Source: Salegentibacter sp. R32 (GTDB taxonomy: Bacteria > Bacteroidota > Bacteroidia > Flavobacteriales > Flavobacteriaceae). From it: a stretch of DNA of 32,779 nucleotides. The number at the start of each line of letters is the position of its first letter. The stretch's first letter is position 1. Location: contig NZ_RXOM01000033.1 in assembly GCF_008692195.1 (NCBI RefSeq), positions 1 through 32,779 of the forward strand, written 5' to 3'. The position numbers were made by a program, and so were the translations under genes. This document shows positions 7,805 through 21,791 of this stretch, piece after piece. A model generated the notes under the pieces. The model was not told the origin of the DNA. It searched no databases and worked only from the letters and a program-made list of their open reading frames with translations.

Positions 7805-10800
7805 CTACTCTTTTATAATTTTAATTATTTGCTTAGTATTTTTCACATATACACTTGCAAAATAAACACCTGATGAAAAACTTTCCATGGATAACATAAC
7901 TTTATCCATGCCAACTTTCTTCGTCAATATTTTTTGTCCGGCAAGGCTATATATTTCAATAACATCAATAGCAAATTCATTCTCAAAATAAATATTGTCT
8001 TTAGTAGGATTAGGATAACAAACTAATTTATTAAAAATTTTATTGTTATCAACAGACAAATCTTTTGTATCGAAATTCAAAACTTCTACATTACTCTCTA
8101 CCGGAATTGTAGGATCACATAAAGAATACATTGATAAGGTTAAATCAGCATTAATAGGCAAATCATTAATTACTTCGAAATTGGTTCCTCCCTCAATTAT
8201 ACCAGAATAAACTTCCTGACCAGAACTATCATCTGTTATTTCAATAATATAATCCTGTATACTTCTAACGTTAGCAGGCTCATCCCATTCTATTACAATA
8301 CTAGCACTATCCTCATCTAAAGAGAGCCCTGTATCTACAATCGTTAGATTGGTAGGTTGTGGACAATCTAACTCCACTGTTATAGGCAAAAAGTCACTTT
8401 CACACCCATTCAAGGTCTGGGTTACATAATAGGTCTGCCCGTGGGATAATAAATAATTTATGGTAACTAAATCATATTCTCCATTTTGATCAAGAAGATA
8501 AAACTTCAAATTAGTGCCAGTCACATCTAAATCATCCACAACATCTCCCGAAACATACGATTGAGTACTACTAGATGTGGTAGGTATATCTGTATAAGAT
8601 ACTGAAATATCTACATTACTACTAACATTTGGACATGTATCAAAATTCAATAAAGCAGTATAAGTATAATCACCATCTTCAGATTGAGTAAAGTAAACTT
8701 CATTTACAGGAGAACCATCATAAGGGATGGTAGCCTGATCGTCAAAATATAAATCAGAAGTTGGAGACCAAGTTACAAAACCTTCAACAAATTGTCTTTT
8801 AAAGACTACATTATCAACAGCCATCCACCAGCCCCAAGTACCAGTATAATGAAAAGAGATAAGAACATTTGACAATCCTACATATTCATCTAAACTTATA
8901 CTCTCTGTTTCAAAAGGGCCAGCAGGATCTAATTGATCAAAATCGTAAGTAGCAACAGACTCCCAATTATCACCTTGATCTAAAGACACTTCAACATTTA
9001 TTGCTGTATCTGTATTTGATAAATAACTATAATTCCTAAAAAAATATTCAAAATTCAAATCGAAACTAGCCACACCCACTAAGTTGACCGTAGGTGAAAT
9101 TAGGCGAGTATCTAAAGATGCTCCACTCCCTAATTGGTCTGCTACAGAAATATAATATTTAGAATTATCGTTACTAGACAAGTTTACAGCAGGACTACCT
9201 TCAGGAGAGAATGGTGAATTTACGATTTCCCAATCTGCCGAAGAAGAATTCCCTATATTTGACATACTATTATTTTCTGTAGTCCATCCTTGGCTACCAT
9301 CCTCAAAATCGAATATTTCTGAACCAGCCGTTAGTCTTACAATATCATCTGAACATACGTCTGTAGAAACAGGAATCACTCCTAAATCCCCCACACCATT
9401 TGCAATTATATCAAAACTAGCAGTTGTACTACAGGTTGTTATTGGATTATAGCCTTCCACAGTAAAAGTGGTATTCCCTAGAATTGTAGGCGTTATGGTT
9501 GTACCAGTTTCTGAATGATTAGTATTATCATTCCAAGTCCAAGTGTATTGGTAATCAGTATCAGTACTTGAAGCTGTTAATTCTGCCATAGACCCCACAC
9601 ATACAATATCTTCTACTGCAGTAATAGTTATAGGTTGTATTTCATGTACAATAGCTTCTACTTCAGTTCGCGGAGTTCTCTCACATAACACTTGCGTACC
9701 CTTAATCGTCCAATTATAAAAATAATAATAGTTAGAAGAGTTGCCCCCTGATGCATTGGCTCCTCCTGTAATGCTAGCAGAAGAACCTAATGAATAAGGG
9801 AAATTGGCATTAGAAGAACTAGTATACAATAAAGTAGGACCACTTACCTTTCTTAAATAATAGTCTCCAGCATTTTGAAACTCCCAATCTAAATTGATAG
9901 TAGTTAATACCGGAACACTCGAAGAACCTCCATTTAATGTAACTGTTTTAGTTAATGTCAATTGAGAAGAAGACTCATCAACTAATTCCAATACCAAATT
10001 ACCACTTCCCAAAGCATAAACATCTACTGAAGAGAGTGTAAAAGGTTCAATAGCACTAATACTTAAACCAAAATCTGATGATGAACTAGAAGACGTAACA
10101 GGGCCTATAATACCTTGATTCGGTACTGTTCCAGCTCCTAAAAACACCTCTGTTGCCCAATAAGATGTAGTCTCAGATATAGGAGGAGTATCAAAAGTTT
10201 CCCCTACCCCTAGTCGTTGACCTCCACTTGCAGCATTATACCAATAGACTTCAGAATAATTATCAAAACTACTTGAATTTTTAACAACTGATAACTCCAT
10301 AGAACCACTTCCACATACTTCATCACCTTGTGGGGAGGACAAGCCACCTAAATCAGCATTACACGTAATTTCATCAAAAGTTACTGCTAAAGGCGTACTT
10401 TCACAGCTCCCTATATTCTGAGTTACATAAAAAACATCTTGATCATTAATGATAATAGAAGAAGGGTCAGAAATTGGGTTACTAAAATCAGGAGATCCTC
10501 CACTATCAGGATACCATTGTAAAGATATAGAAGGACCTTTATGAGGACTCGGAGATACACCTCTGATACTATTGGTAAAATCACTTAATGTTTGATTCGC
10601 TGAACCTACAAACGGTATAACAGAGTCTCCAGCCGGAGCTCCCCAAGTATTACAATCAAAACCTTCAATATGTAATTCATATGGAGAATTAACTGGATTG
10701 CCCCCAGTGTTATCAATAGTTGCAATTACTATATATATTTCTTGACCGGCATCTACAAAAACACTGTTCAATTGTATATCTGAACCGTCAGAAGTTGAGT

Positions 10801-12070
10801 CTCCATACAAACATATTCCATCACTGCCTCCTATATCATCACAACTATCATACACAAATACCCCCGCAGTAATATTACTATCTAATCCAGTAACGTCTAT
10901 TGTTAAAATATCATCTTCACTGGAAACCATGTTATATACCACTTCATACCCATCAAGTACAGGAGCGTTCGTTCCACACGCAGCTCCTGGAGTACTACTA
11001 TAGTCCTCAAAACCAAACCTGTCTGTTTGATCTATAGAAGTATATGGTAAATCTACAGAATTATCAGGATTAAGCGGATCTTGGTTAATAATAATAGATT
11101 CTTCACAATAAGAGCCTATTGCTAAGGTTTGAACTTGTAAAGGAGTATCTAAATTATTCCAATTACTTTTATCATTAGGACCACAAACTGTTCTTACATA
11201 AATATAATAAGTAGTACCATCAGCCAACCCGGGTATAGTAGCAGTCATTCTATTGGTTGCGGGATCAGGGGTCCCATTTACAGTAATAATATCTGACCCT
11301 CCACCTAGACTATAGCAAAAGGGATTTCCATTATTTACCGAATCACCAGGATTTCCAGGTCCCGTACAAGCAACAACTTCCCATTCTGAAGCATTTGGAC
11401 TATTCAAATCTACCCAAGAAATATCTAGCGACGTAAAGCTAACAGAAGAAGGATCTACTTCAATATTAATAGGTTTCAAACAACCAACATCTTCAATAGC
11501 TGTAAAATCATCAACATAAATATAAAACTCATTACCTGAAGTAGTGTTTAAATCTTGAGCTCTCAAACGCCAAGAGAAGTTATCACCCGGTGCTAAAGCA
11601 GAAGCCGGTATTGTAGAAGTATGCACAGAACAGTTAGAAGTAGGAAGATCATTTTGATCTATCACATCGTAAACGTTCCAATTCTGCCCACCATTTACAC
11701 TATACTGTAATTCAATATTAACAATATTTCCAGAGCTTAAGCTCCCTGTTGCCATATCTATTAACTTATAAGTAAAACTAATTTCAATAGCGTTTCCTAA
11801 TTCTACAACTTGGGAAGGAGATTCTACAAATGTTACCCCCCCAGTAGGAGATAAGACCCTAATAGATTGATCCCCATTACAAGGATTAGTATCAGTTATT
11901 AAAAACTCTGGTAAACCTGAGTCCCAACCGGTAATATTAGTCACAGATATACCTGGGGTACCCTGCTCAAAGTTTTCGTACATTATTACCTGCGCATTTG
12001 ATTTGAAATTAGAAAAACAACAAATCAAAACCAGCAAACATGGAATAAAGTATTTTTTTATCATTCTCAT
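7805..12070 (-). CDS. Large T9SS type A cargo with MAM-like, fibronectin III and Ig-like domains
   Basis: 1421 aa. The signal peptide ends near residue 27 (KSNAQ); an ATG two codons further in is an alternative start. The order seen is a MAM/jelly-roll-like domain (~28-195, ending FYIYVDDFTAIEDVGC), an Fn3-like domain (~198-316), a bacterial pre-peptidase-like β domain (~320-475), Ig-like segments (QWYPDSGG...FYVTQNIGSCES; YWYNAASGG...TSYWATEVF), a second MAM-like domain (FDFEDGSQGWTTEN...WWMAVDNVVFKR), another Ig-like segment and a last Fn3. The final 73 residues (1349-1421) are a type A sorting domain: YPNPTKDNIYF, IEIYSLAGQKIL, SSGVYFASV, KIIKE. No catalytic domain is recognisable, so an adhesive or structural role is inferred. 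It lies 70 bp after the 2635-aa gene and 78 bp before the type B cargo gene. Confidence 0.9.
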   Translation of the reverse strand: MRMIKKYFIPCLLVLICCFSNFKSNAQVIMYENFEQGTPGISVTNITGWDSGLPEFLITDTNPCNGDQSIRVLSPTGGVTFVESPSQVVELGNAIEISFTYKLIDMATGSLSSGNIVNIELQYSVNGGQNWNVYDVIDQNDLPTSNCSVHTSTIPASALAPGDNFSWRLRAQDLNTTSGNEFYIYVDDFTAIEDVGCLKPINIEVDPSSVSFTSLDISWVDLNSPNASEWEVVACTGPGNPGDSVNNGNPFCYSLGGGSDIITVNGTPDPATNRMTATIPGLADGTTYYIYVRTVCGPNDKSNWNNLDTPLQVQTLAIGSYCEESIIINQDPLNPDNSVDLPYTSIDQTDRFGFEDYSSTPGAACGTNAPVLDGYEVVYNMVSSEDDILTIDVTGLDSNITAGVFVYDSCDDIGGSDGICLYGDSTSDGSDIQLNSVFVDAGQEIYIVIATIDNTGGNPVNSPYELHIEGFDCNTWGAPAGDSVIPFVGSANQTLSDFTNSIRGVSPSPHKGPSISLQWYPDSGGSPDFSNPISDPSSIIINDQDVFYVTQNIGSCESTPLAVTFDEITCNADLGGLSSPQGDEVCGSGSMELSVVKNSSSFDNYSEVYWYNAASGGQRLGVGETFDTPPISETTSYWATEVFLGAGTVPNQGIIGPVTSSSSSSDFGLSISAIEPFTLSSVDVYALGSGNLVLELVDESSSQLTLTKTVTLNGGSSSVPVLTTINLDWEFQNAGDYYLRKVSGPTLLYTSSSNANFPYSLGSSASITGGANASGGNSSNYYYFYNWTIKGTQVLCERTPRTEVEAIVHEIQPITITAVEDIVCVGSMAELTASSTDTDYQYTWTWNDNTNHSETGTTITPTILGNTTFTVEGYNPITTCSTTASFDIIANGVGDLGVIPVSTDVCSDDIVRLTAGSEIFDFEDGSQGWTTENNSMSNIGNSSSADWEIVNSPFSPEGSPAVNLSSNDNSKYYISVADQLGSGASLDTRLISPTVNLVGVASFDLNFEYFFRNYSYLSNTDTAINVEVSLDQGDNWESVATYDFDQLDPAGPFETESISLDEYVGLSNVLISFHYTGTWGWWMAVDNVVFKRQFVEGFVTWSPTSDLYFDDQATIPYDGSPVNEVYFTQSEDGDYTYTALLNFDTCPNVSSNVDISVSYTDIPTTSSSTQSYVSGDVVDDLDVTGTNLKFYLLDQNGEYDLVTINYLLSHGQTYYVTQTLNGCESDFLPITVELDCPQPTNLTIVDTGLSLDEDSASIVIEWDEPANVRSIQDYIIEITDDSSGQEVYSGIIEGGTNFEVINDLPINADLTLSMYSLCDPTIPVESNVEVLNFDTKDLSVDNNKIFNKLVCYPNPTKDNIYFENEFAIDVIEIYSLAGQKILTKKVGMDKVMLSMESFSSGVYFASVYVKNTKQIIKIIKE

Positions 12071-12140: not shown

Positions 12141-15100
12141 CTATTCTTTTAGAATTTTAACTATAGTAGATTTGTTATCCACAGATATTTTCACCATATA
12201 GGTTCCAGAAGCTAAATGAGAAATATTTATCTCTGCCTCCATACTATTGATATTTTTAGTCATCAATTTTTGTCCTAATAGGTTATAAACTTCAATATTG
12301 TCAATTGACACATTATTTTTTATAAACAAACTACTACTAGTAGGGTTTGGATAATATTTTAAACTGGAGAATACAATATCATCAGCATCCAAGCTACCAA
12401 CGTGAACAGTAATACCAACTAATTCACTTTCACATTCACCATTCAAGGTTTGAGAAACATAATATGTTTCTTGGTCTTCTAAAACTTCAGTAGTTGGAGT
12501 GGGTATTGGATTTATACCAAACTCATCTGCATACCAATTTAAATTATCTCCCTGAACCTGTAAATCTGCAACAGTTTCACCTAAATCAAAACTTTGGTTT
12601 ATTGGAGCATCAGGCATTAAAGAAGTTTCTTTAACATCTACAGTAACTTGTAAACGGTCATCACTTTCACAACCATTTATGGTCTGTGTAGCATAATAAA
12701 CATCGCCGTTAGTTAACATTTGATTTGAAGGAACCATTTCGTTAGAAGATTCATCAGCATACCAAATCACTTCAGTTCCTGTTACACTAATATCACTAAC
12801 TCTAGCACCCTCACAAAACTCTTGAACAGAATCTCCAGCAGGTATTTGAGTTGGCGTGTAATTAACATTAATCACAACCTCTTCACGTTCAGTTGAACAT
12901 TCAACAGCAGATTCTCTGGTAAAAATTTCAGCAACCCAAACAGATGTTGTTCGATCTATATCTATCACTAAAGTTTCACCAGTACCTAAAATCACACCGC
13001 TTTCATCATCTGAATACCAAACTACATAACTTCCAGTTCCACTAGGCGTTGCAGTAAGAGTTACCTCTCCTCCCGGAGCACATAGATAAGGTAATATATC
13101 TGTATCAATACTTAAGCCATCACAATCAAACTCAACCGGATCAATTGCCACAGGATTACTTTCACAACCTAATATGGTTTGTGTTACATAATATGTTTTA
13201 TCAGAAGATATAATTTCCTGACTAGGATCAATTACATTAGTAAGTGCCTGATCATCATACCAAGTAAAGCCTTCGTTATAAACCGATCCATCTAATCCAA
13301 TAAGTGGAATGATATTAGACAAAGTATTGCCATTCACAAAGTAAGGAGAAGTTGTTTCTACATTTGGTTCATCAATATTATTACAATCTAAACCATTAAT
13401 AGTTAGAGTATAGTTAACAGAACCTGATTCCGAAGAAACCACAATAAATAAATCCTCTCCAGCATTTACATAATAATCTTCAAAAGCCACACTAGTTAAA
13501 CCTTCACTGGTCAAGCCATCTAAGCAATCAATACCTATTAAGCCACAACTAGAGTAAAGATAAATACCGGTTGCTGTATTTGTAATATCTGACAACTCAA
13601 TAGTCAAAACATCATCATTAGCTGGATCTGCAGTATATTTATAAATCACTTCATTTCCGTCTAAATACTCTGCCCCAGGACAATCAGATCCTGGATCTCC
13701 AGAAAAATCATTACCATATATAGATGTACTTGAACTATGCTCATAGGGTAAATCTGTATAATCTACCAACTCATCACCAGATTGATTAACCATAGCCACA
13801 GCCTCTTGACGCGGTGATTCACAAAGTACAGAAGCACCAGTAATAATTACTTTATAATCATGTACTTCACCAAAAGAACCCCCAGCATTACAAGGATCTG
13901 CAGGATTACCAGCAAATCTATTCATAACCCTCATAACAGTTGTTGTACCAAGCGCGCTCTGAGGAACTGTAAAAGTACCTTGTGTTGGGCTTGTAGTACT
14001 ACCTGACTCATACAAACTTTCAGCCGGATCAAAAGTACCATTATTATCCAAATCAATCCAAATTCTAACATACTGACTAGTTGTATAGTTATGAGTAACA
14101 TACACATCATAATTTTGTCCTGCTACTAATACTCCGGTTCCAGTAAGACTAGAAGAGCCTGAAGTATAATCGGTATAATAACCACTAGATGCACAACCAG
14201 TGCCTTCATGTTGAATTATACTTGCACCCGACAAACTATTGGTCAAAATAAAATCATCAATATCATCTCCTGAACTACAGCCAAAAGTAGGAGCTACAGG
14301 ATCACAATATGATTGTAATGTTCCTCCACCAGAACCAGTACCCGACTCAAGCTCAACTTCTGCAGCCCAATAAGAAGTAGTAGTATCTAAATTTGGAGTA
14401 ATAAAATCTGATCCAATCCCCACTAAATTTCCACCAGTTGCCGCATCATACCAATAAACATCATCCCCAGTTCCGCTTGCGGTAGCAGAAAGCTGCATTG
14501 TCCCTCTACAATTTGCAGAATCATCAAAAACAGCAGTAATTGCCAAAGCACTACAGTCTATTTCAGAAACCGTTATAGAAACTGCCGCACTGTCACATCC
14601 ATTAAACACTTGAACAACGTCATAGGTTTCACCATCTACTAATGCATCGGTTTCTGCCAATTGATTGTTATTAGAATCGTAATACTTAAAGGTTACATTA
14701 GATTTTGTCCCTTCTACTTCAAGGTCAGCCAATGTTTCTCCGGTCACAAAATCTTGATTAGCTTGAGCGTTTGGAGCTTCAAAACTTGAACAATCAAAAG
14801 GAATAATGTCCAAAGTATAATCTACAGATGGATTCAACCAACTAGAAACTACAATAATATATTCTTGACCTGATGTCATTTCAAATTCTAATATATCCAG
14901 ATCCATTTCTGTTGGCCCGGCAACAACACCGGCAACACAACTATTTCCGATATCCCCACAACTTTCATATACAAATACACTAGCATATAAACCGGTAATA
15001 TTGGACAATTTAATATCAACCAAGTCATCATTGGCTGCAGTATATTTATAAACAGTTTCGTTTCCATTTAAATACCCTTCAGAAGTACCACAATCTGAGC

Positions 15101-18100
15101 CAGGTTCTCCTGAGTACCAATTTTGATAATCTCCTGTATTACCTGTAAAGTTATATGGTAAATTTGCAATATCAATAGCCACATCACATCTTGCTCCAAT
15201 CACAAGAGGTTCAAACGAAGCTTTCACCCAATCACTAGTTGATCCGCCACCACAATCAGTTTGTATATAAACATCATATTCTGTTCCTGACGATAAATTA
15301 TCAATAGTAAAAGGTAAAGAAGATACTGTCTCCGTAGTCCCATTACCTTGTACAAAACCTTGAGGGCCATACTCAATAGTCCAAGAATTAGAGTTATTAA
15401 AATCTAACCAAGCAATATCAACCTGATCTAGCTGATAATTAAAAATTGAAACTTGCTCAGGCTCCAAACAAGGATTAGGCATTTCATCTACCACAATATC
15501 ATCTATAAGAATATCATGATTAGAAATATCTCCACCATTAGCGGCACCAGTTACGGTGAAACGGAATTGAACATCCCCACTAATAGTATAAGTAGATAAA
15601 TCAAAAACAAATCTATACCAATTGCTACCTAATAAATTAGTAAACGTATCTAACGTATTCCAATTAGCTCCATCATAAAATTCCACTTCCATCTCGTTAA
15701 TAGCAGCATCATCAGTATTATCACTGAACATATAAAATTCTAATGATGGAACTGTTAAACTTGACAAATCCATAAGTGGACTAACAAGACTTGCTGTTTC
15801 ACCATCATCATTATCATCTCCATCTACCCAAGCATAATTAGTACTCCCGGAAGTATGATCTCCCGCATCTGAAGCAGCATTATCAGCACCTGTACTAAAC
15901 ATCCAAGCATCAGGGTTATCCCCTTCTACACTCCAACAATCAGGAATACTGGCATCCACAAAACTCTGCATATAAGGAGCAACAATCACCTCACAAAGAG
16001 TAGTAAAAGTAATAGGTCCAGCCCAAGTACTATATCCATCTGCCGTACCACAATAAGCTCTCACATAAAAATCGTAAGAAGTATTAGGATCTAAGCCTGT
16101 TTTCACAAAAGGACTTGTAACATTTGTATCGGTAGGAGTCCCTGAAGGAGCTGTACCAGCTTCAACCACTTCTACATCCCAAGAAACTTCATTCCCTTGA
16201 GAAGACCAGCTCAATTCTGCAGAAGTTGAGGTAATATTTGAAGCATCCAAAGCACCAGGCTCTATACAAGGAGGAGATTCAATCACTGAAACATCATCAA
16301 TCAACACGTCATTATTAAATGTAAAGCCTTCTGTATCATCACCAGTTACAGTAAACCTCACCTTAATATTACCATTTACCGTAATCACATTAGCAATATT
16401 AACGGAATACTGTCTCCAACTACTATCTAAGGTGTTTATGGTTTCAACCAAAACCCAATTCACACCATCATATATCTCTACATCAAGCGGGTTAGCACCA
16501 GGATGATCATCATTATCACTAAAAACATAAAACTCCAATAAAGGATTAACCAATGAAGACAAATCAATTTCCGGAGTAATTAATGAACTTACTTCGTCAT
16601 CAGTATTATCAGAACCATCTATCCAAGCATAATTAGTACCTCCTCCAGCGGTATGATCCCCAGCAGCAGCGGCAGCGTAAGCAGCACTAGTACTATAATC
16701 CCAAGCAGAATCTCCGCTTTCCGTCCAACAATTAGGAGTAGTAGAAGACGCAAAAGTTTCTGTAAATGGCGCAGTGATCGCTCCACAAGCAGTATCAAAG
16801 GTATACGGACCAGCCCAACCACTAAAACCGTCAACAGTTCCACAATCAGCTCTGACATAAAAATCATAACTACTAGCAGAAGAAAGACCCGTTTTCACAT
16901 AAGGACTAGTAACTCCAGGATCGGTTGGCACCCCTGTAGGCTGAGAACCTGCAGAAACAACTTCAACATCCCAAGAACTTTCCGTCCCACCAGGCATCCA
17001 ACTTAACTCTGCACTGTTGCTTGTAATACTTGTCGCATTTAAGGAAGTAGGATCTAAACAAGTAGGCGCTTCATCTATACTTACATCATCTATTAAAACA
17101 TCATTATAAAAAACACTAGCACCACTGCTTGAAATCACACTAAATCTTATCTGCACAGGACCGGTAATAGTATAATTTTCAGAAAGCCCAACAATATACT
17201 CTCGCCATCCACTCTGATGAGTATCTACAGTTTGAATTAAATTCCAGTTAGCACCATCATAAAATTCTATTTCTAAAGTATTAACTGTGGAATTATTAGT
17301 ATTATTACTAAACACATAAAAAGATACAGCAGCACTATTTAGATTAGAGACATCAACAAGAGGCGTACTCAAACTACTTTTATCTCCTGATGAATTACCA
17401 GATTGATCTACCCAAGCATAATTAGTTCCACCTCCGGCAGTATGATCACCGGCACTACTCGCAGCATAATCTGCCCCGGTAGTATATATCCAAGATTCGT
17501 CACCGCTTTCACTCCAACAATCTGGAGTAGATCCTGATTCAAAATCTTCATAAAATGGAGCAGGATACACATCACATTCTGTTGTGAAAGTAATAGGCCC
17601 AACCCATTCAGAAGAACCATCTGCCCCACAATCTGATTGCACATATACTTCATATGAAGTAACAGGTGTTAAATTAGTTACCATATAAGGATTAGAGACA
17701 CCTGAAGCGGTAGGTACCCCGGTAGCAGAAGAACCAGTAGGCACCACCTCTACATTCCATAAAGACTCATTCACAGTAGAAAACCAACCAACATCAGCGG
17801 TCGTTGCAGTCACATTTGAAGCAGAAACACCTAGAGGAGGTGCGCAAGCATCCCCTAATTGAATAGTCACATCATCAATGGCTATATCACCAGTACCCCC
17901 ATCAGCACGAACCGCTCTAAAACGAACCTGAACAGTACTTACAGAGGTATAAGCCTGCAAACTAATCTTAGCTTCTTCCCAAGCATCGCCTGCACTCGCC
18001 TGCTGTTGACCACTTATTACAAGTAAATCATTATCCCAAGAGGCACCATTATTCACATCTATATGCAACTCCCCTGTATCATCACCATACATATGGTAAT

Positions 18101-20048
18101 AAAACGACAACACTGGAGATGATAAAAGATCTATATTTATTAAAGGAGAAATAAGCTCAGCCTCATCTCCTTGAGCACCACCAGTAGATTCTACATAGAA
18201 ATAATTATTACCGCTATTTGCCCCTGAAGGCCCCGTATTAGAAGTTGGCGTAGAACCGCCACCATCTACATTCCAATTAAAATCGCTTATAGAATTAGCC
18301 GTCCAACATCTTGAATCTGTAAAATCTTCCACAGCCATATGCCCTTCCACATCATCATTCCACGGCGCTTCAAATTCTAAAGGGCACGCAGTAGTAAACG
18401 TAAAAGGCCCTATCCAATCACTAAAACCATCTCCACCACAATCAGATTGCACATAAAAATCATAAGCAGTATTCGGGTCTAAACCAGTTTTAACAAAAGG
18501 ATTTGTCACCCCGGTATCTGTAGCTATATTCATTAGCCCTGCCCCTTCCGGCACCACCTGCACATTCCAACTATTTATACTAGGATCTGCATTCCAGCTC
18601 AACTCTGCAGTATTAGCAGTCACACTAGCAACCGATAGACTTGCCGGAGGCAAACACAATACATTTTCTACAGAGATATCGTCAATCAAAATATCATTAT
18701 GATAGGTTTGCCCTCCGGTTAAAGATTCATCGGCACCCGTAACCGTAAATCTAAATTGCACGGCTCCAGTTATCGTACTAACACCAGATAAGTTAAAAAT
18801 GTATTGTCGCCAATTACCATCTAATGTATTGACAGTTGTCAACAAATTCCAACTCGCCCCATCATAAAACTCTACTTCTAAATCATTAACTAAATCATTA
18901 TTCGTATTATCACTAAATACATAAAATTGCAACACCGGTTTAGACAAGGAAGACACATCTATTAAAGGAGTTTCTAAAACACCTGTTTCAAAATCCGTAT
19001 TATCACTACCATCTATCCAAGCATAATTAGTACCCCCACCAGGTGTATGATCACCTGCCGAAGATGCTGCATAAGCTGCACTAGTACTATAATCCCAACT
19101 CGTATCACCACTTTCAACCCAACAACTACTAGGAGTAGAACTTGAAGAAAAATCTTCATAAAAAGGGGCAGAAACCGCCTGACAAGCAGTTTCAAACGTA
19201 AAAGGACCAACCCAAGCACTCAAATCACCACCCCCACAATCAGCTCTCACATAAAAATCATAAGGAGTTTGAGGAGACAAACCCGAAATTGGATAAGGGT
19301 TTGAGGTAACCCCACTACCTGTAGGAGTACCAGTTGGTGTAAAACCTACAGGACCATACTCTACATCCCAAGCAGAAGCACCGCTTGTCCATGATATCAT
19401 CGCATTAACATCACCAGCAAAATCCAAACTTACATTACTAGGCATAGCACAAGTAACATCCATCACTTCAACATCATCCAAATACCAACCTGCTCGCTGA
19501 GCAGAAGTATCGCTTTCCAATCTAAATCTCACCATAAATTGAGAACTCCCCACATAAGCAGACAAATCAAACAATTCATTTTTCCACCAAGTATTGTTAG
19601 GGGTAGTATTACTAGTACCCCAATCCGAGTAAGAATCCTCATCAAAAGTACCATCAGCCTCCAAAACCCCACTACCCTGGTATTCAGAAGACAATAAAGG
19701 AGAAAAAGTAGAACCGCCATCTGTTGAAACTTCAACAATCGCCTCATCCCATCCACCTTCTGTTTTCGCGATGTGATAAAAACTCAACATTGGAGTTCCC
19801 GAAAAAGAAGTCAGATCTATAGCGGAACTCAAAAAAAGAATATTAGAATTACTAGCCTGATATTCATTTTTCACTGATTGAGCCCCACCGTGGAACAAGG
19901 TAGTTTCCACGACCCAATTCACATCATTCGTTGATCCATTAGAAAACAACCCTAGACCTGACTCAAAATCTTCAGAGATTTGAGCCCTAACACCATGAAA
20001 AGATGCGAATAGGATTATTCCCAATAAATAAAAGTATTTTTTTTTCAT
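12141..20048 (-). CDS. Giant T9SS type A cargo built of tandem MAM-like/Fn3 modules
   Basis: 2635 aa with a signal peptide ending near residue 23 (GVRAQ). The N-terminal ~1530 residues are six modules of ~260 aa. Each is a jelly-roll/MAM-like domain followed by an Fn3 domain (SYDFYVRADCG...WAGPYTF). Modules 2, 4, 5 and 6 share AGDHT, NYAW and ILIDD; modules 1 and 3 are divergent. After this come pre-peptidase-like β domains (NGNETVYKYTAANDD and DGNEVIYKYTADPAND), a GEVED-type domain (RIWIDLDNNGTFDPAES...GEVHDYKVIITG) and several Ig-like segments ending TYYVSQTLNG. The last 73 residues (2563-2635) are a type A sorting domain: YYPNPTSSSLFI, IEVYNLLGQKL, ASGTYMVKI, KILKE. There is no visible catalytic site. 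The architecture suggests a secreted adhesin or glycan-binding protein. It is the first gene of the minus-strand block and has its own -7 box upstream. Confidence 0.9.
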   Translation of the reverse strand: MKKKYFYLLGIILFASFHGVRAQISEDFESGLGLFSNGSTNDVNWVVETTLFHGGAQSVKNEYQASNSNILFLSSAIDLTSFSGTPMLSFYHIAKTEGGWDEAIVEVSTDGGSTFSPLLSSEYQGSGVLEADGTFDEDSYSDWGTSNTTPNNTWWKNELFDLSAYVGSSQFMVRFRLESDTSAQRAGWYLDDVEVMDVTCAMPSNVSLDFAGDVNAMISWTSGASAWDVEYGPVGFTPTGTPTGSGVTSNPYPISGLSPQTPYDFYVRADCGGGDLSAWVGPFTFETACQAVSAPFYEDFSSSSTPSSCWVESGDTSWDYSTSAAYAASSAGDHTPGGGTNYAWIDGSDNTDFETGVLETPLIDVSSLSKPVLQFYVFSDNTNNDLVNDLEVEFYDGASWNLLTTVNTLDGNWRQYIFNLSGVSTITGAVQFRFTVTGADESLTGGQTYHNDILIDDISVENVLCLPPASLSVASVTANTAELSWNADPSINSWNVQVVPEGAGLMNIATDTGVTNPFVKTGLDPNTAYDFYVQSDCGGDGFSDWIGPFTFTTACPLEFEAPWNDDVEGHMAVEDFTDSRCWTANSISDFNWNVDGGGSTPTSNTGPSGANSGNNYFYVESTGGAQGDEAELISPLINIDLLSSPVLSFYYHMYGDDTGELHIDVNNGASWDNDLLVISGQQQASAGDAWEEAKISLQAYTSVSTVQVRFRAVRADGGTGDIAIDDVTIQLGDACAPPLGVSASNVTATTADVGWFSTVNESLWNVEVVPTGSSATGVPTASGVSNPYMVTNLTPVTSYEVYVQSDCGADGSSEWVGPITFTTECDVYPAPFYEDFESGSTPDCWSESGDESWIYTTGADYAASSAGDHTAGGGTNYAWVDQSGNSSGDKSSLSTPLVDVSNLNSAAVSFYVFSNNTNNSTVNTLEIEFYDGANWNLIQTVDTHQSGWREYIVGLSENYTITGPVQIRFSVISSSGASVFYNDVLIDDVSIDEAPTCLDPTSLNATSITSNSAELSWMPGGTESSWDVEVVSAGSQPTGVPTDPGVTSPYVKTGLSSASSYDFYVRADCGTVDGFSGWAGPYTFDTACGAITAPFTETFASSTTPNCWTESGDSAWDYSTSAAYAAAAAGDHTAGGGTNYAWIDGSDNTDDEVSSLITPEIDLSSLVNPLLEFYVFSDNDDHPGANPLDVEIYDGVNWVLVETINTLDSSWRQYSVNIANVITVNGNIKVRFTVTGDDTEGFTFNNDVLIDDVSVIESPPCIEPGALDASNITSTSAELSWSSQGNEVSWDVEVVEAGTAPSGTPTDTNVTSPFVKTGLDPNTSYDFYVRAYCGTADGYSTWAGPITFTTLCEVIVAPYMQSFVDASIPDCWSVEGDNPDAWMFSTGADNAASDAGDHTSGSTNYAWVDGDDNDDGETASLVSPLMDLSSLTVPSLEFYMFSDNTDDAAINEMEVEFYDGANWNTLDTFTNLLGSNWYRFVFDLSTYTISGDVQFRFTVTGAANGGDISNHDILIDDIVVDEMPNPCLEPEQVSIFNYQLDQVDIAWLDFNNSNSWTIEYGPQGFVQGNGTTETVSSLPFTIDNLSSGTEYDVYIQTDCGGGSTSDWVKASFEPLVIGARCDVAIDIANLPYNFTGNTGDYQNWYSGEPGSDCGTSEGYLNGNETVYKYTAANDDLVDIKLSNITGLYASVFVYESCGDIGNSCVAGVVAGPTEMDLDILEFEMTSGQEYIIVVSSWLNPSVDYTLDIIPFDCSSFEAPNAQANQDFVTGETLADLEVEGTKSNVTFKYYDSNNNQLAETDALVDGETYDVVQVFNGCDSAAVSITVSEIDCSALAITAVFDDSANCRGTMQLSATASGTGDDVYWYDAATGGNLVGIGSDFITPNLDTTTSYWAAEVELESGTGSGGGTLQSYCDPVAPTFGCSSGDDIDDFILTNSLSGASIIQHEGTGCASSGYYTDYTSGSSSLTGTGVLVAGQNYDVYVTHNYTTSQYVRIWIDLDNNGTFDPAESLYESGSTTSPTQGTFTVPQSALGTTTVMRVMNRFAGNPADPCNAGGSFGEVHDYKVIITGASVLCESPRQEAVAMVNQSGDELVDYTDLPYEHSSSTSIYGNDFSGDPGSDCPGAEYLDGNEVIYKYTADPANDDVLTIELSDITNTATGIYLYSSCGLIGIDCLDGLTSEGLTSVAFEDYYVNAGEDLFIVVSSESGSVNYTLTINGLDCNNIDEPNVETTSPYFVNGNTLSNIIPLIGLDGSVYNEGFTWYDDQALTNVIDPSQEIISSDKTYYVTQTILGCESNPVAIDPVEFDCDGLSIDTDILPYLCAPGGEVTLTATPSGTGSYVVWYSDDESGVILGTGETLVIDIDRTTSVWVAEIFTRESAVECSTEREEVVINVNYTPTQIPAGDSVQEFCEGARVSDISVTGTEVIWYADESSNEMVPSNQMLTNGDVYYATQTINGCESDDRLQVTVDVKETSLMPDAPINQSFDLGETVADLQVQGDNLNWYADEFGINPIPTPTTEVLEDQETYYVSQTLNGECESELVGITVHVGSLDADDIVFSSLKYYPNPTSSSLFIKNNVSIDNIEVYNLLGQKLMTKNINSMEAEINISHLASGTYMVKISVDNKSTIVKILKE
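15470..19470 (-). repeat. Tandem ~790-800-bp coding repeats inside the giant gene
   Basis: The complement of the NYAW codons (CCAAGCATAATT) recurs at 15828, 16623, 17412 and 19017. The spacings are 795, 789 and 1605 bp, the last being two units with the diverged third module between. Conservation at nucleotide level is high enough that several copies produce similar open shadow frames. This points to recent duplication or gene conversion and makes unit number liable to change. Outer limits are approximate. Confidence 0.8.
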
Positions 20049-20111: not shown

Positions 20112-20407
20112 ATTTTTTTAGAACAAGAAGTAAAGGATTTATTAACTTTTTTTTAATGATAAACCTAAAAACCATCGAATTAAGATTTAATACTAAATCA
20201 TTCGATTAAATGAATTTTAGTGTAAAAAAATTAACAATTCCCCTCTTAGTCTTCATGTTTCCACCCTAATATATTAAAATTTATCAAAAGTACATCCCTA
20301 TAGGAAACTGTAACAAAATTAGAAATACCGATAATTTCATTAGAAGTCCTTAAATTAACTTTAATTCTATATTAACAACTTTTACCATAAAAAACATAAA
20401 TTTTCAA

Positions 20408-20415
20408 TATATTTG
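20408..20415 (+). promoter_or_regulatory. Bacteroidota -7 box of metK
   Basis: TATATTTG matches TAnnTTTG exactly. A TTTA at 20381-20384 is a weak -33 candidate. Transcription would start near 20421, about 10 nt before the first stem of the structured leader, which fits a riboswitch placed at the 5' end of the mRNA. Confidence 0.55.
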
Positions 20416-20430
20416 TCTCAAATAAAAATA

Positions 20431-20508
20431 TAGGGAAAAATTTGACTGATTGCAACCCTTAAAAATGCTAAAGCAGTAAATTACTTCTTTAGATTGAACT
20501 TCAATCAG
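20431..20508 (+). promoter_or_regulatory. Putative SAM-II-like riboswitch in the metK leader
   Basis: The pattern matches what I remember of the SAM-II aptamer. A P1 stem is formed by AGGG (20432-20435) and CCCT (20456-20459). Its loop contains ATTTG then ACTG and TTGC, and the 3' part contains the SAM-II-like GCTAAAG (20467-20473). A pseudoknot is possible between ACTG (20445-20448) in the loop and CAGT (20474-20477). A competing fold pairs CTGATTG (20446-20452) with CAATCAG (20502-20508), and inside it CTAAAG (20468-20473) with CTTTAG (20487-20492), extended by AGTA/TACT. The competing fold uses both pseudoknot strands, so the two are mutually exclusive. The gene downstream makes SAM. No U-tract follows, so control of translation is more likely than termination. 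P1 is only 4 bp, so the class assignment is tentative. Confidence 0.55.
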
Positions 20509-20534
20509 CCTTCTTCCCTACTAAAATATAATGA

Positions 20535-21791
20535 ATGGCTTATTTATTTACTTCGGAAAGTGTTTCTGAAGGGCATCCAGATAAAATCGCAGATCAAATT
20601 AGCGACACCCTATTAGATAATTTTTTAGCGTTTGACGAACAGTCCAAAGTTGCTTGTGAGACTTTGGTTACTACAGGACAAGTGGTACTTGCCGGTGAAG
20701 TTCGCTCAAATACATACCTAGATGTGCAACAAATTGCACGTGATGTAATTAATGATATTGGTTACACCCAAGGGGCTTACCAATTTAGTGGTGATTCTTG
20801 TGGTGTGATTTCTCTAATTCACGAACAATCCCCCGAAATTAACCAAGGAGTGGATCGTGAAAGTAAAGAGGAACAAGGTGCTGGAGACCAAGGTATGATG
20901 TTTGGCTATGCAACCACAGAGACCGAAAATTATATGCCGCTAGCGCTCGATATCTCTCATAAAATGATGATTGAATTAGCTAAGCTAAGAAGGGAAAATA
21001 AAGAGCTAACTTATTTGCGGCCTGATGCAAAAAGTCAAGTAACTATTGAATATAGCGATGATAATATTCCGCAACGAATTGTAGCGATTGTGCTTTCTAC
21101 ACAGCATGATCAATTTATGGAAGATGATGAAAAGATGCTTCAGCAAATTAAAGAAGACATTATCAAGATTTTAATGCCACGCGTGATTGAGCAACTACCG
21201 GAATATGTTCAGCAATTATTTAATGATGATATTACGTATCACATTAACCCGACCGGAAAATTCGTGATTGGCGGACCTCATGGTGATGCTGGACTTACCG
21301 GTAGAAAAATTATTGTAGATACTTATGGAGGTAAAGGAGCCCACGGTGGTGGCGCTTTTTCCGGTAAAGACCCGAGTAAAGTAGATCGTTCGGCAGCTTA
21401 TGCTTCAAGACATATTGCCAAAAACTTAGTAGCTGCCGGTGTAGCTGATGAAGTTTTAGTGCAAGTTTCTTATGCAATTGGTGTGGCTGAACCTACTTCT
21501 ATTTTTGTAGATACTTATGGAACTTCTAAAGTAGAGCTATCAAACGGGGAAATCGCCCAAAAAGTAAAGGAGGTTTTTGATATGCGCCCAGCGGCGATTG
21601 AAGAACGCTTAAAACTTCGAAATCCAATCTACCGAGAAACCGCGGCTTACGGACATATGGGGAAAGAACCGAAAACCATTACGAAAATTTTCGAAAGCCC
21701 ATATTCAGGTAAAATCACTAAAGATGTCGAGTTGTTTACTTGGGAGAAATTAGATTACGTAGATAAAGTGAAGAATGCTTTTAATTTATAA
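20535..21791 (+). CDS. metK: S-adenosylmethionine synthetase
   Basis: 418 aa, a usual length for Bacteroidota MetK. It makes S-adenosylmethionine from methionine and ATP in the cytoplasm. Conserved segments are visible: [20 protein letters not shown] at the N-terminus, [10 protein letters not shown] near residue 118, the [20 protein letters not shown] stretch, and [19 protein letters not shown] with its catalytic and phosphate-binding residues. The start is ATG at 20535; an out-of-frame ATG at 20531 overlaps it (ATGAATGGC). Its promoter and a SAM-II-like leader lie immediately upstream, consistent with feedback by its own product. The AhpD-like gene begins 94 bp downstream. Confidence 0.98.

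Follow-up and report, generated by a model that had tools for sequence, protein, structure and literature searches.

How can a SAM-II riboswitch control a gene whose start carries no Shine-Dalgarno (SD) site? SAM-II is known for hiding the SD site or for making a terminator. The phylum Bacteroidota is described as lacking SD sites, with initiation tuned by mRNA structure (PMC6847099). A sensor that is kept in a group whose ribosomes ignore the SD sequence must therefore be read differently. The leader of metK in Salegentibacter sp. R32 raises this question. It lies on a contig of 32,779 nucleotides, here called the window, for which a preliminary description from sequence had proposed a SAM-II-like riboswitch and a second, mutually exclusive fold. 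The rod-like anti-aptamer described below offers a concrete and testable answer to the problem of an SD-free read-out.

The SAM-II aptamer and its gene

A cmscan search placed a match to RF01726 (SAM-II, "long loop") at 20426..20481 on the + strand, covering model positions 1-60 of 60 with 59.3 bits (gathering cut-off 44) and an E value of 3.7e-9. This is the sole over-threshold Rfam match within the window, and the whole genome holds one SAM-II copy. A search of a short stretch at E <= 10 returned the same match together with four on the minus strand (E 0.25 to 7.6), which were dismissed as chance, their scores lying far below the cut-offs.

All elements named in the preliminary description are present in the sequence. 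Alignment to the RF01726 structure line gives a P1 stem on the + strand at 20432-20435/20456-20459 and inner pairs ATT 20440-20442/GAT 20448-20450. P1 consists of four standard pairs, and the model P1 position T20431/T20460 is a non-standard pair. The complementary segments ACTG 20445-20448 and CAGT 20474-20477 (+ strand), placed according to the SAM-II model, we take to be the pseudoknot, which is not shown in the Rfam model line. Given the full-length RF01726 match, the earlier call of a SAM-II member stands and its reservation that this might be a distinct SAM-sensing RNA falls away. Judged by its sequence, the sensor is an ordinary member of the known SAM-II class, and it presumably binds SAM in Salegentibacter sp. 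R32.

The gene downstream, at 20535..21791 on the + strand, is metK, identified as SAM synthetase by TIGR01034 (513.9 bits, cut-off 309.4). There are 53 bases between the aptamer 3' end and metK, and 57 bases from the CAGT strand to the start codon. On the other side of the aptamer, the sequence TATATTTG (20408..20415, + strand) is of the TAnnTTTG type, which we take to be the Bacteroidota-type -7 promoter element. Of 146 relatives, 134 have such an element no more than 45 nt 5' of the aptamer, usually at a distance of 4-12 nt; in shuffles the figure is 4.9%. Because it stands shortly before the aptamer in both the window and the relatives, the metK mRNA very probably starts at about 20420, at the aptamer edge. 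The placement proposed earlier, after a promoter and ahead of a SAM synthetase gene, is thus borne out.

Two further features were observed in the window. An extra ATG at 20531-20533, out of frame and four bases 5' of the metK ATG (AATGAATGGC), is absent from the other genus leaders listed. The minus strand carries two very long ORFs, 12141-20048 (2635 aa) and 7805-12070 (1421 aa), the longer of which is repetitive and presumably resembles surface proteins that are secreted and carry a C-terminal sorting domain.

Distribution of SAM-II among relatives

SAM-II is present in 373 of 397 genomes of Flavobacteriaceae, the family of the window. Among the 60 closest relatives 53 have it, all 16 members of the genus being among them. 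In the phylum it was found in 45 of 296 genomes, 30 of them from the same family, 6 from elsewhere in the order, 8 from elsewhere in the class and 1 from beyond. For comparison of the leaders we used 161 loci (61 returned directly by the searches and 100 further places), which are better-scoring matches and not a random draw; 146 of the metK leaders were usable. The gene 3' of SAM-II is metK in 155 of the 161 loci. The remaining six are an O-acetylhomoserine sulfhydrylase (L020, tested; L033, by likeness), QueF three times and DUF6580 once.

The aptamers ahead of QueF (preQ1 synthase) score above the gathering cut-off (L009:1501-1560, L086:301-360 and L097:301-361), the identity of QueF having been tested in L009 and assigned by likeness in the other two. 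Their cores deviate, with ACTG changed to ATTG in L009 and L086 and an extra base in L097. A putative SAM switch ahead of a queuosine gene is unexpected. At L084:301-359, SAM-II lies directly 3' of a tRNA gene and 5' of a gene for a DUF6580 membrane protein, and no anti-aptamer is visible there. The DUF6580 protein could be a transporter under the control of SAM.

The genome of strain R32 also carries a SAM-I riboswitch (RF00162, 76 bits, L162:1501-1613, that is G000:C43:5631-5743 on the + strand) before a metH-like homocysteine methyltransferase gene. Among the 397 family genomes SAM-I is found in 310 and SAM-II in 373, and therefore at least 286 carry both. In a 2007 survey, no species was reported with the two classes together (PMC2258182).

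An alternative fold that captures the aptamer

The minimum free energy (MFE) structure of 20424-20560 (-21.7 kcal/mol) differs from the aptamer fold and contains a long rod on the + strand, made of three parts. Its outer helix, TAGGGAA 20431-20437/TTCCCTA 20514-20520, captures the P1 5' strand; its middle helix, CTGATTG 20446-20452/CAATCAG 20502-20508, captures the pseudoknot 5' strand; and its inner hairpin, CTAAAG 20468-20473/CTTTAG 20487-20492 with AGTA 20475-20478/TACT 20482-20485, captures the pseudoknot 3' strand. Since the P1 5' strand and both strands of the pseudoknot are bound up in the rod, aptamer and rod are mutually exclusive. The nested hairpin consuming both pseudoknot strands, as described earlier, is present as part of the MFE rod. 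Its extent had been underestimated: the helices claimed are there, but the outer helix had been missed, and because this also pairs, the fold ends at 20520 and not at 20508.

Inside the inner hairpin, C20474 faces T20486 as a mismatch. Within the 55 bases that follow CAG., one of ACTTC, ACTTT, ACTCC, ACTAC and ACTCT is found first in 97 of 146 leaders; for ACTGC the number is 4. A kept C/T mismatch may limit the stability of the inner hairpin, so that SAM can prevail.

Taken alone, the rod of the window is mildly unusual under whole-stretch shuffles (z -1.62; 12 of 200 shuffles as good), and shuffling only the part after the aptamer gives z -3.3 (20 shuffles). In MFE structures of a growing transcript the inner hairpin appears from 20492 on and the rod is complete at 20520. 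When pseudoknot and ligand energies are left out, P1 by itself contributes -2.6 kcal/mol and the rod -20.3 kcal/mol; SAM would therefore have to act before 20482-20520 is completed, which makes this a question of timing.

Conservation and co-variation of the alternative fold

Pairing between the aptamer core and the leader strand (mean probability > 0.5) is predicted in 127 of 146 leaders (87.0%); with shuffled leaders the share is 28.2% (n=2920), with swapped ones 57.9% (n=876). Both pseudoknot strands, the core and the GCTAAAGCAGT strand, are captured in 84 of 146 (57.5%, compared with 3.3% shuffled and 29.9% swapped). Within the genus a core position is paired at >= 0.91 in 16 of 16 leaders despite the changing sequence of the strand, and the GCTAAAGCAG strand is captured at > 0.7 on average in 15 of 16 (0.27 in L067). 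The exact CAATCAG partner occurs in four of the 16 genus leaders, with other registers elsewhere, such as CAAATC in L045, L046 and L050; CTTTAG is found in 13, and one more has TTTTAG opposite CTAAAA. Outside the family, in 16 leaders drawn from 11 further families of this order, a core position is paired at > 0.5 in all cases except L055, and core pairing is likewise predicted in five of six non-metK leaders, the exception being L084.

The paired part of the aptamer is invariant inside the genus, and compensatory evidence therefore comes from the wider family and the order. The main set for co-variation comprised 89 leaders, selected greedily at < 60% leader identity; single-linkage clustering put 98 of the 146 leaders in one cluster, and its result was kept beside that of the greedy set. 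All these statistics ignore kinship, with no tree correction, so relatedness can inflate them. Aptamer cores paired better with their own leader than with permuted ones (-10.62 versus -9.32 kcal/mol, sd 0.18, n=89), with none of 20000 permutations as good (p <= 5e-5). With the P1 strand added, the values for the 89 leaders were -15.45 and -13.40 kcal/mol, and with single-linkage clusters none of 5000 A:D permutations was as good. In a composition control with shuffled leaders the difference between own and permuted was -0.23 to +0.12; since it vanishes there, base composition is not the cause of the fit to the own leader.

Individual leaders exemplify the exchange. In L154, AUUUGGUC replaces AUUUGAC and GACCAAAU stands opposite, giving -22.3 with its own core versus -12.7 with the consensus core, and paired variants are also seen in L041 (GGC with GCC) and L031 (GUC with GAC). 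Across 45 variant cores, the own core was better than the consensus in 25, equal in 7 and worse in 13.

For the hairpin on the GCTAAAG strand (H:D) the motif pairings are mixed, and no energy excess of own over permuted leaders was found in 41 clusters (p 0.55). AAAA[CT] goes with TTTTAG in 7/22 versus 7/124 of all leaders and 6/18 versus 3/71 of the 89-set (p 0.0018); AAAGC goes with CTTTAG in 34/96 versus 4/50 and 23/61 versus 4/28 (p 0.028); AAAGG goes with TTCCTT in 14/22 versus 9/124 and 2/6 versus 7/83 (p 0.11).

By these comparisons of predicted pairing the second fold is real, conserved and co-varying across related metK leaders, as would be expected if the earlier proposal of two competing folds is right. 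Of the two outcomes named as refuting that proposal, a missing covariance-model match and a lack of compensatory changes among related leaders, neither was observed.

Accessibility of the start region

The predicted cost of opening the start region (-12..+12) over all 146 leaders is 3.02 kcal/mol in the rod state versus 4.34 with a shuffled leader (p 8e-21). With the aptamer removed, as if SAM-bound, it is 5.13 versus 4.56 shuffled (p 0.003). Leader L001 has costs of 2.3 in the rod state and 5.7 with the aptamer removed. In the genus the rod state costs 1.70 versus 2.97 shuffled; with the aptamer removed the cost is 3.86, not significantly harder than the 3.39 of shuffled leaders (p 0.43). For a window of -18..+15, native leaders gave 4.99 free and 6.14 bound versus 5.37 and 5.42 for shuffled ones (difference p 1.8e-6). 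The genus has the opposite sign at -25..+5, where the cost in its 16 leaders falls from 7.69 with the rod to 4.63 kcal/mol without it; the reversal there and at -18..+15 arises because the outer helix of the rod lies in this region, and the narrower start windows were used for the opening costs reported here.

A mask over the start is clearest in a subset of leaders. In 22 of 146 (4.8 expected from single-base shuffles) the bases after CAGU match at least 7 bases near the AUG. From these, 18 were chosen by eye as a three-strand group, L017, L036, L044 and L111 being dropped as low-complexity. In a typical member GUUGCUUU pairs with AAAGCAAC, which lies 2-9 bases 5' of the AUG; the same UUGCUUU can, in most of the 18, pair with the aptamer's AAAGCA instead. 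Their opening cost is 2.49 in the rod state and 6.16 with the aptamer removed, versus 4.03 shuffled (p 4e-4); for the 128 leaders outside the group the latter comparison is 4.99 versus 4.64 (p 0.1). Modelled in this way, the three-strand leaders amount to a simple off-switch of translation that lacks an SD site. Within the wider group they speak most clearly for the direction of control. In them, one strand may couple ligand binding directly to the start codon. With one exception, the 18 belong to genomes no larger than 2.2 Mb.

A more general pairing of leader strands with their own start region is weakly supported. It is slightly better than with permuted partners (p 0.008-0.019, an effect of about 0.3-0.45 kcal/mol), and exact 5-mers shared by leader and start occur in 10 of 146 leaders, compared with 4.2 permuted and 3.6 shuffled, one round of shuffling also reaching 10.

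Proposed mechanism and alternative explanations

We propose, with a probability of roughly 0.65, that a SAM-II riboswitch controls metK and is read out through a long-range anti-aptamer. The rod is most likely the SAM-free, metK-on state, which SAM binding breaks. When SAM is absent, the strand 20482-20520 would pair back onto the aptamer, engaging the 5' strand of P1 as well as the core ACTGATTG and the strand GCTAAAGCAGT; the rod would stop about 14 bases before the AUG, so that the start region stays open and metK is translated. When SAM is present, the aptamer, being transcribed first, would fold and bind before the competing strand is complete and would block the rod, and the freed strand could then base-pair around the start, so that metK would be turned down. 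The analysis shows the class of the aptamer, the gene, the position of the promoter, a conserved and co-varying rod and, in the rod state, an open start region; for Salegentibacter sp. R32 we infer the binding of SAM, its timing and its off direction, and with them the on/off logic of the switch. Several results count against the proposal: with the aptamer removed, opening costs in the genus and in the 128 leaders outside the three-strand group do not significantly exceed those of shuffled leaders, the genus changes sign at -25..+5, the GCTAAAG hairpin lacks an excess of own over permuted pairing, 13 of 45 variant cores pair less well than the consensus would, and P1 is far weaker than the rod.

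The same two folds could serve another output, in which the SAM state acts by Rho-dependent termination or RNA decay through the freed strand, C-rich and poor in G. We consider this unlikely. The freed stretch is indeed G-poor (A32 C20 G11 T37 percent over 146 leaders, median C/G 1.9; 12 C and 4 G in the window), and in the genus a specific mask of the start was not found by the opening-cost test at -12..+12. An excess of C over G is, however, also expected from complementarity to the G-rich aptamer strand, and 18 leaders do have a clear translational mask.

Reversed polarity, with a rod reaching to about -14 that hinders ribosome loading and SAM turning metK on, appears quite improbable. It would account for the drop in the wide-window (-25..+5) cost in the genus once the rod is gone. 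Against it speak the feedback logic expected of a SAM synthetase, the more open start region itself in the rod state of the genus (1.70 versus 3.86) and the three-strand leaders, which point the opposite way (2.49 versus 6.16).

More doubtful still is an ordinary SAM-II read-out, in which SAM buries the SD site in the pseudoknot or makes an intrinsic terminator. Both are described for the class (PMC1273637, PMC10907184, PMC9373788): SD occlusion is given as the SAM-II mechanism in PMC10907184, and many leaders were described with a terminator in 2005 (PMC1273637). Neither fits here. The distance from CAG. to the AUG is 45-116 bases (median 63; 146 leaders), 57 in the window, and an SD-like motif at -16..-5 was seen in 2 of the 146, in a phylum described as being without SD sites (PMC6847099); direct occlusion therefore cannot apply and was ruled out. 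By our script criterion, a terminator-like hairpin followed by a T-run was found in none of the 146 leaders, and none was found in 20250-20700 of the window.

That the leader strand is passive 5'-end structure fitting the aptamer by chance or base composition is hardly credible, as the modest z of -1.62 for the window alone is outweighed by the shuffles and swaps made across the family, by the permutation test and by the control for composition, all of which contradict a chance fit.

An anti-aptamer read-out may extend beyond this locus. We see about even odds that SAM-II in this order is its own read-out class for non-SD ribosomes, in which a shared strand, having evolved together with the aptamer throughout the order while free in register, would pair either with the ligand pocket (open) or with the neighbourhood of the start (closed). 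The leaders compared here show a sensor that is nearly frozen, while the read-out strand shifts in sequence and register.

Comparison with known systems

The sensor is already known, and the anti-aptamer read-out appears to be undescribed: a literature search found no description of one for SAM-II, although Additional File 1 of PMC2864571 may say more. The account of RF01726 by Weinberg et al. 2010 (PMC2864571) shares with the window the full-length aptamer, its occurrence in Bacteroidetes and a methionine/SAM gene downstream; in the description given there, the aptamer is presented and an anti-aptamer read-out is not part of it. The alphaproteobacterial SAM-II riboswitches (Sinorhizobium metA/metZ and a marine metagenome metX; PMC9373788, PMC10907184) have in common with it the fold class, the H-type pseudoknot and the off logic. 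Their read-out is described as a ribosome binding site within the pseudoknot or a terminator made by SAM (PMC9373788, PMC10907184), whereas in the window the start lies 57 bases past CAGT, with neither an SD-like site nor a terminator, and it is a strand further downstream that refolds the aptamer. The SAM-I riboswitch of the same genome (RF00162) is also SAM-sensing by class and belongs to the methionine pathway, but it is an unrelated RNA class ahead of a different gene.

An alternative helix that competes with P1 is common among riboswitches of Firmicutes, where it is usually an antiterminator. Like the window, these riboswitches have mutually exclusive folds that share aptamer strands. The metK leader differs from them in that a terminator was not found and in that the rod captures the ligand-binding pseudoknot strands themselves.
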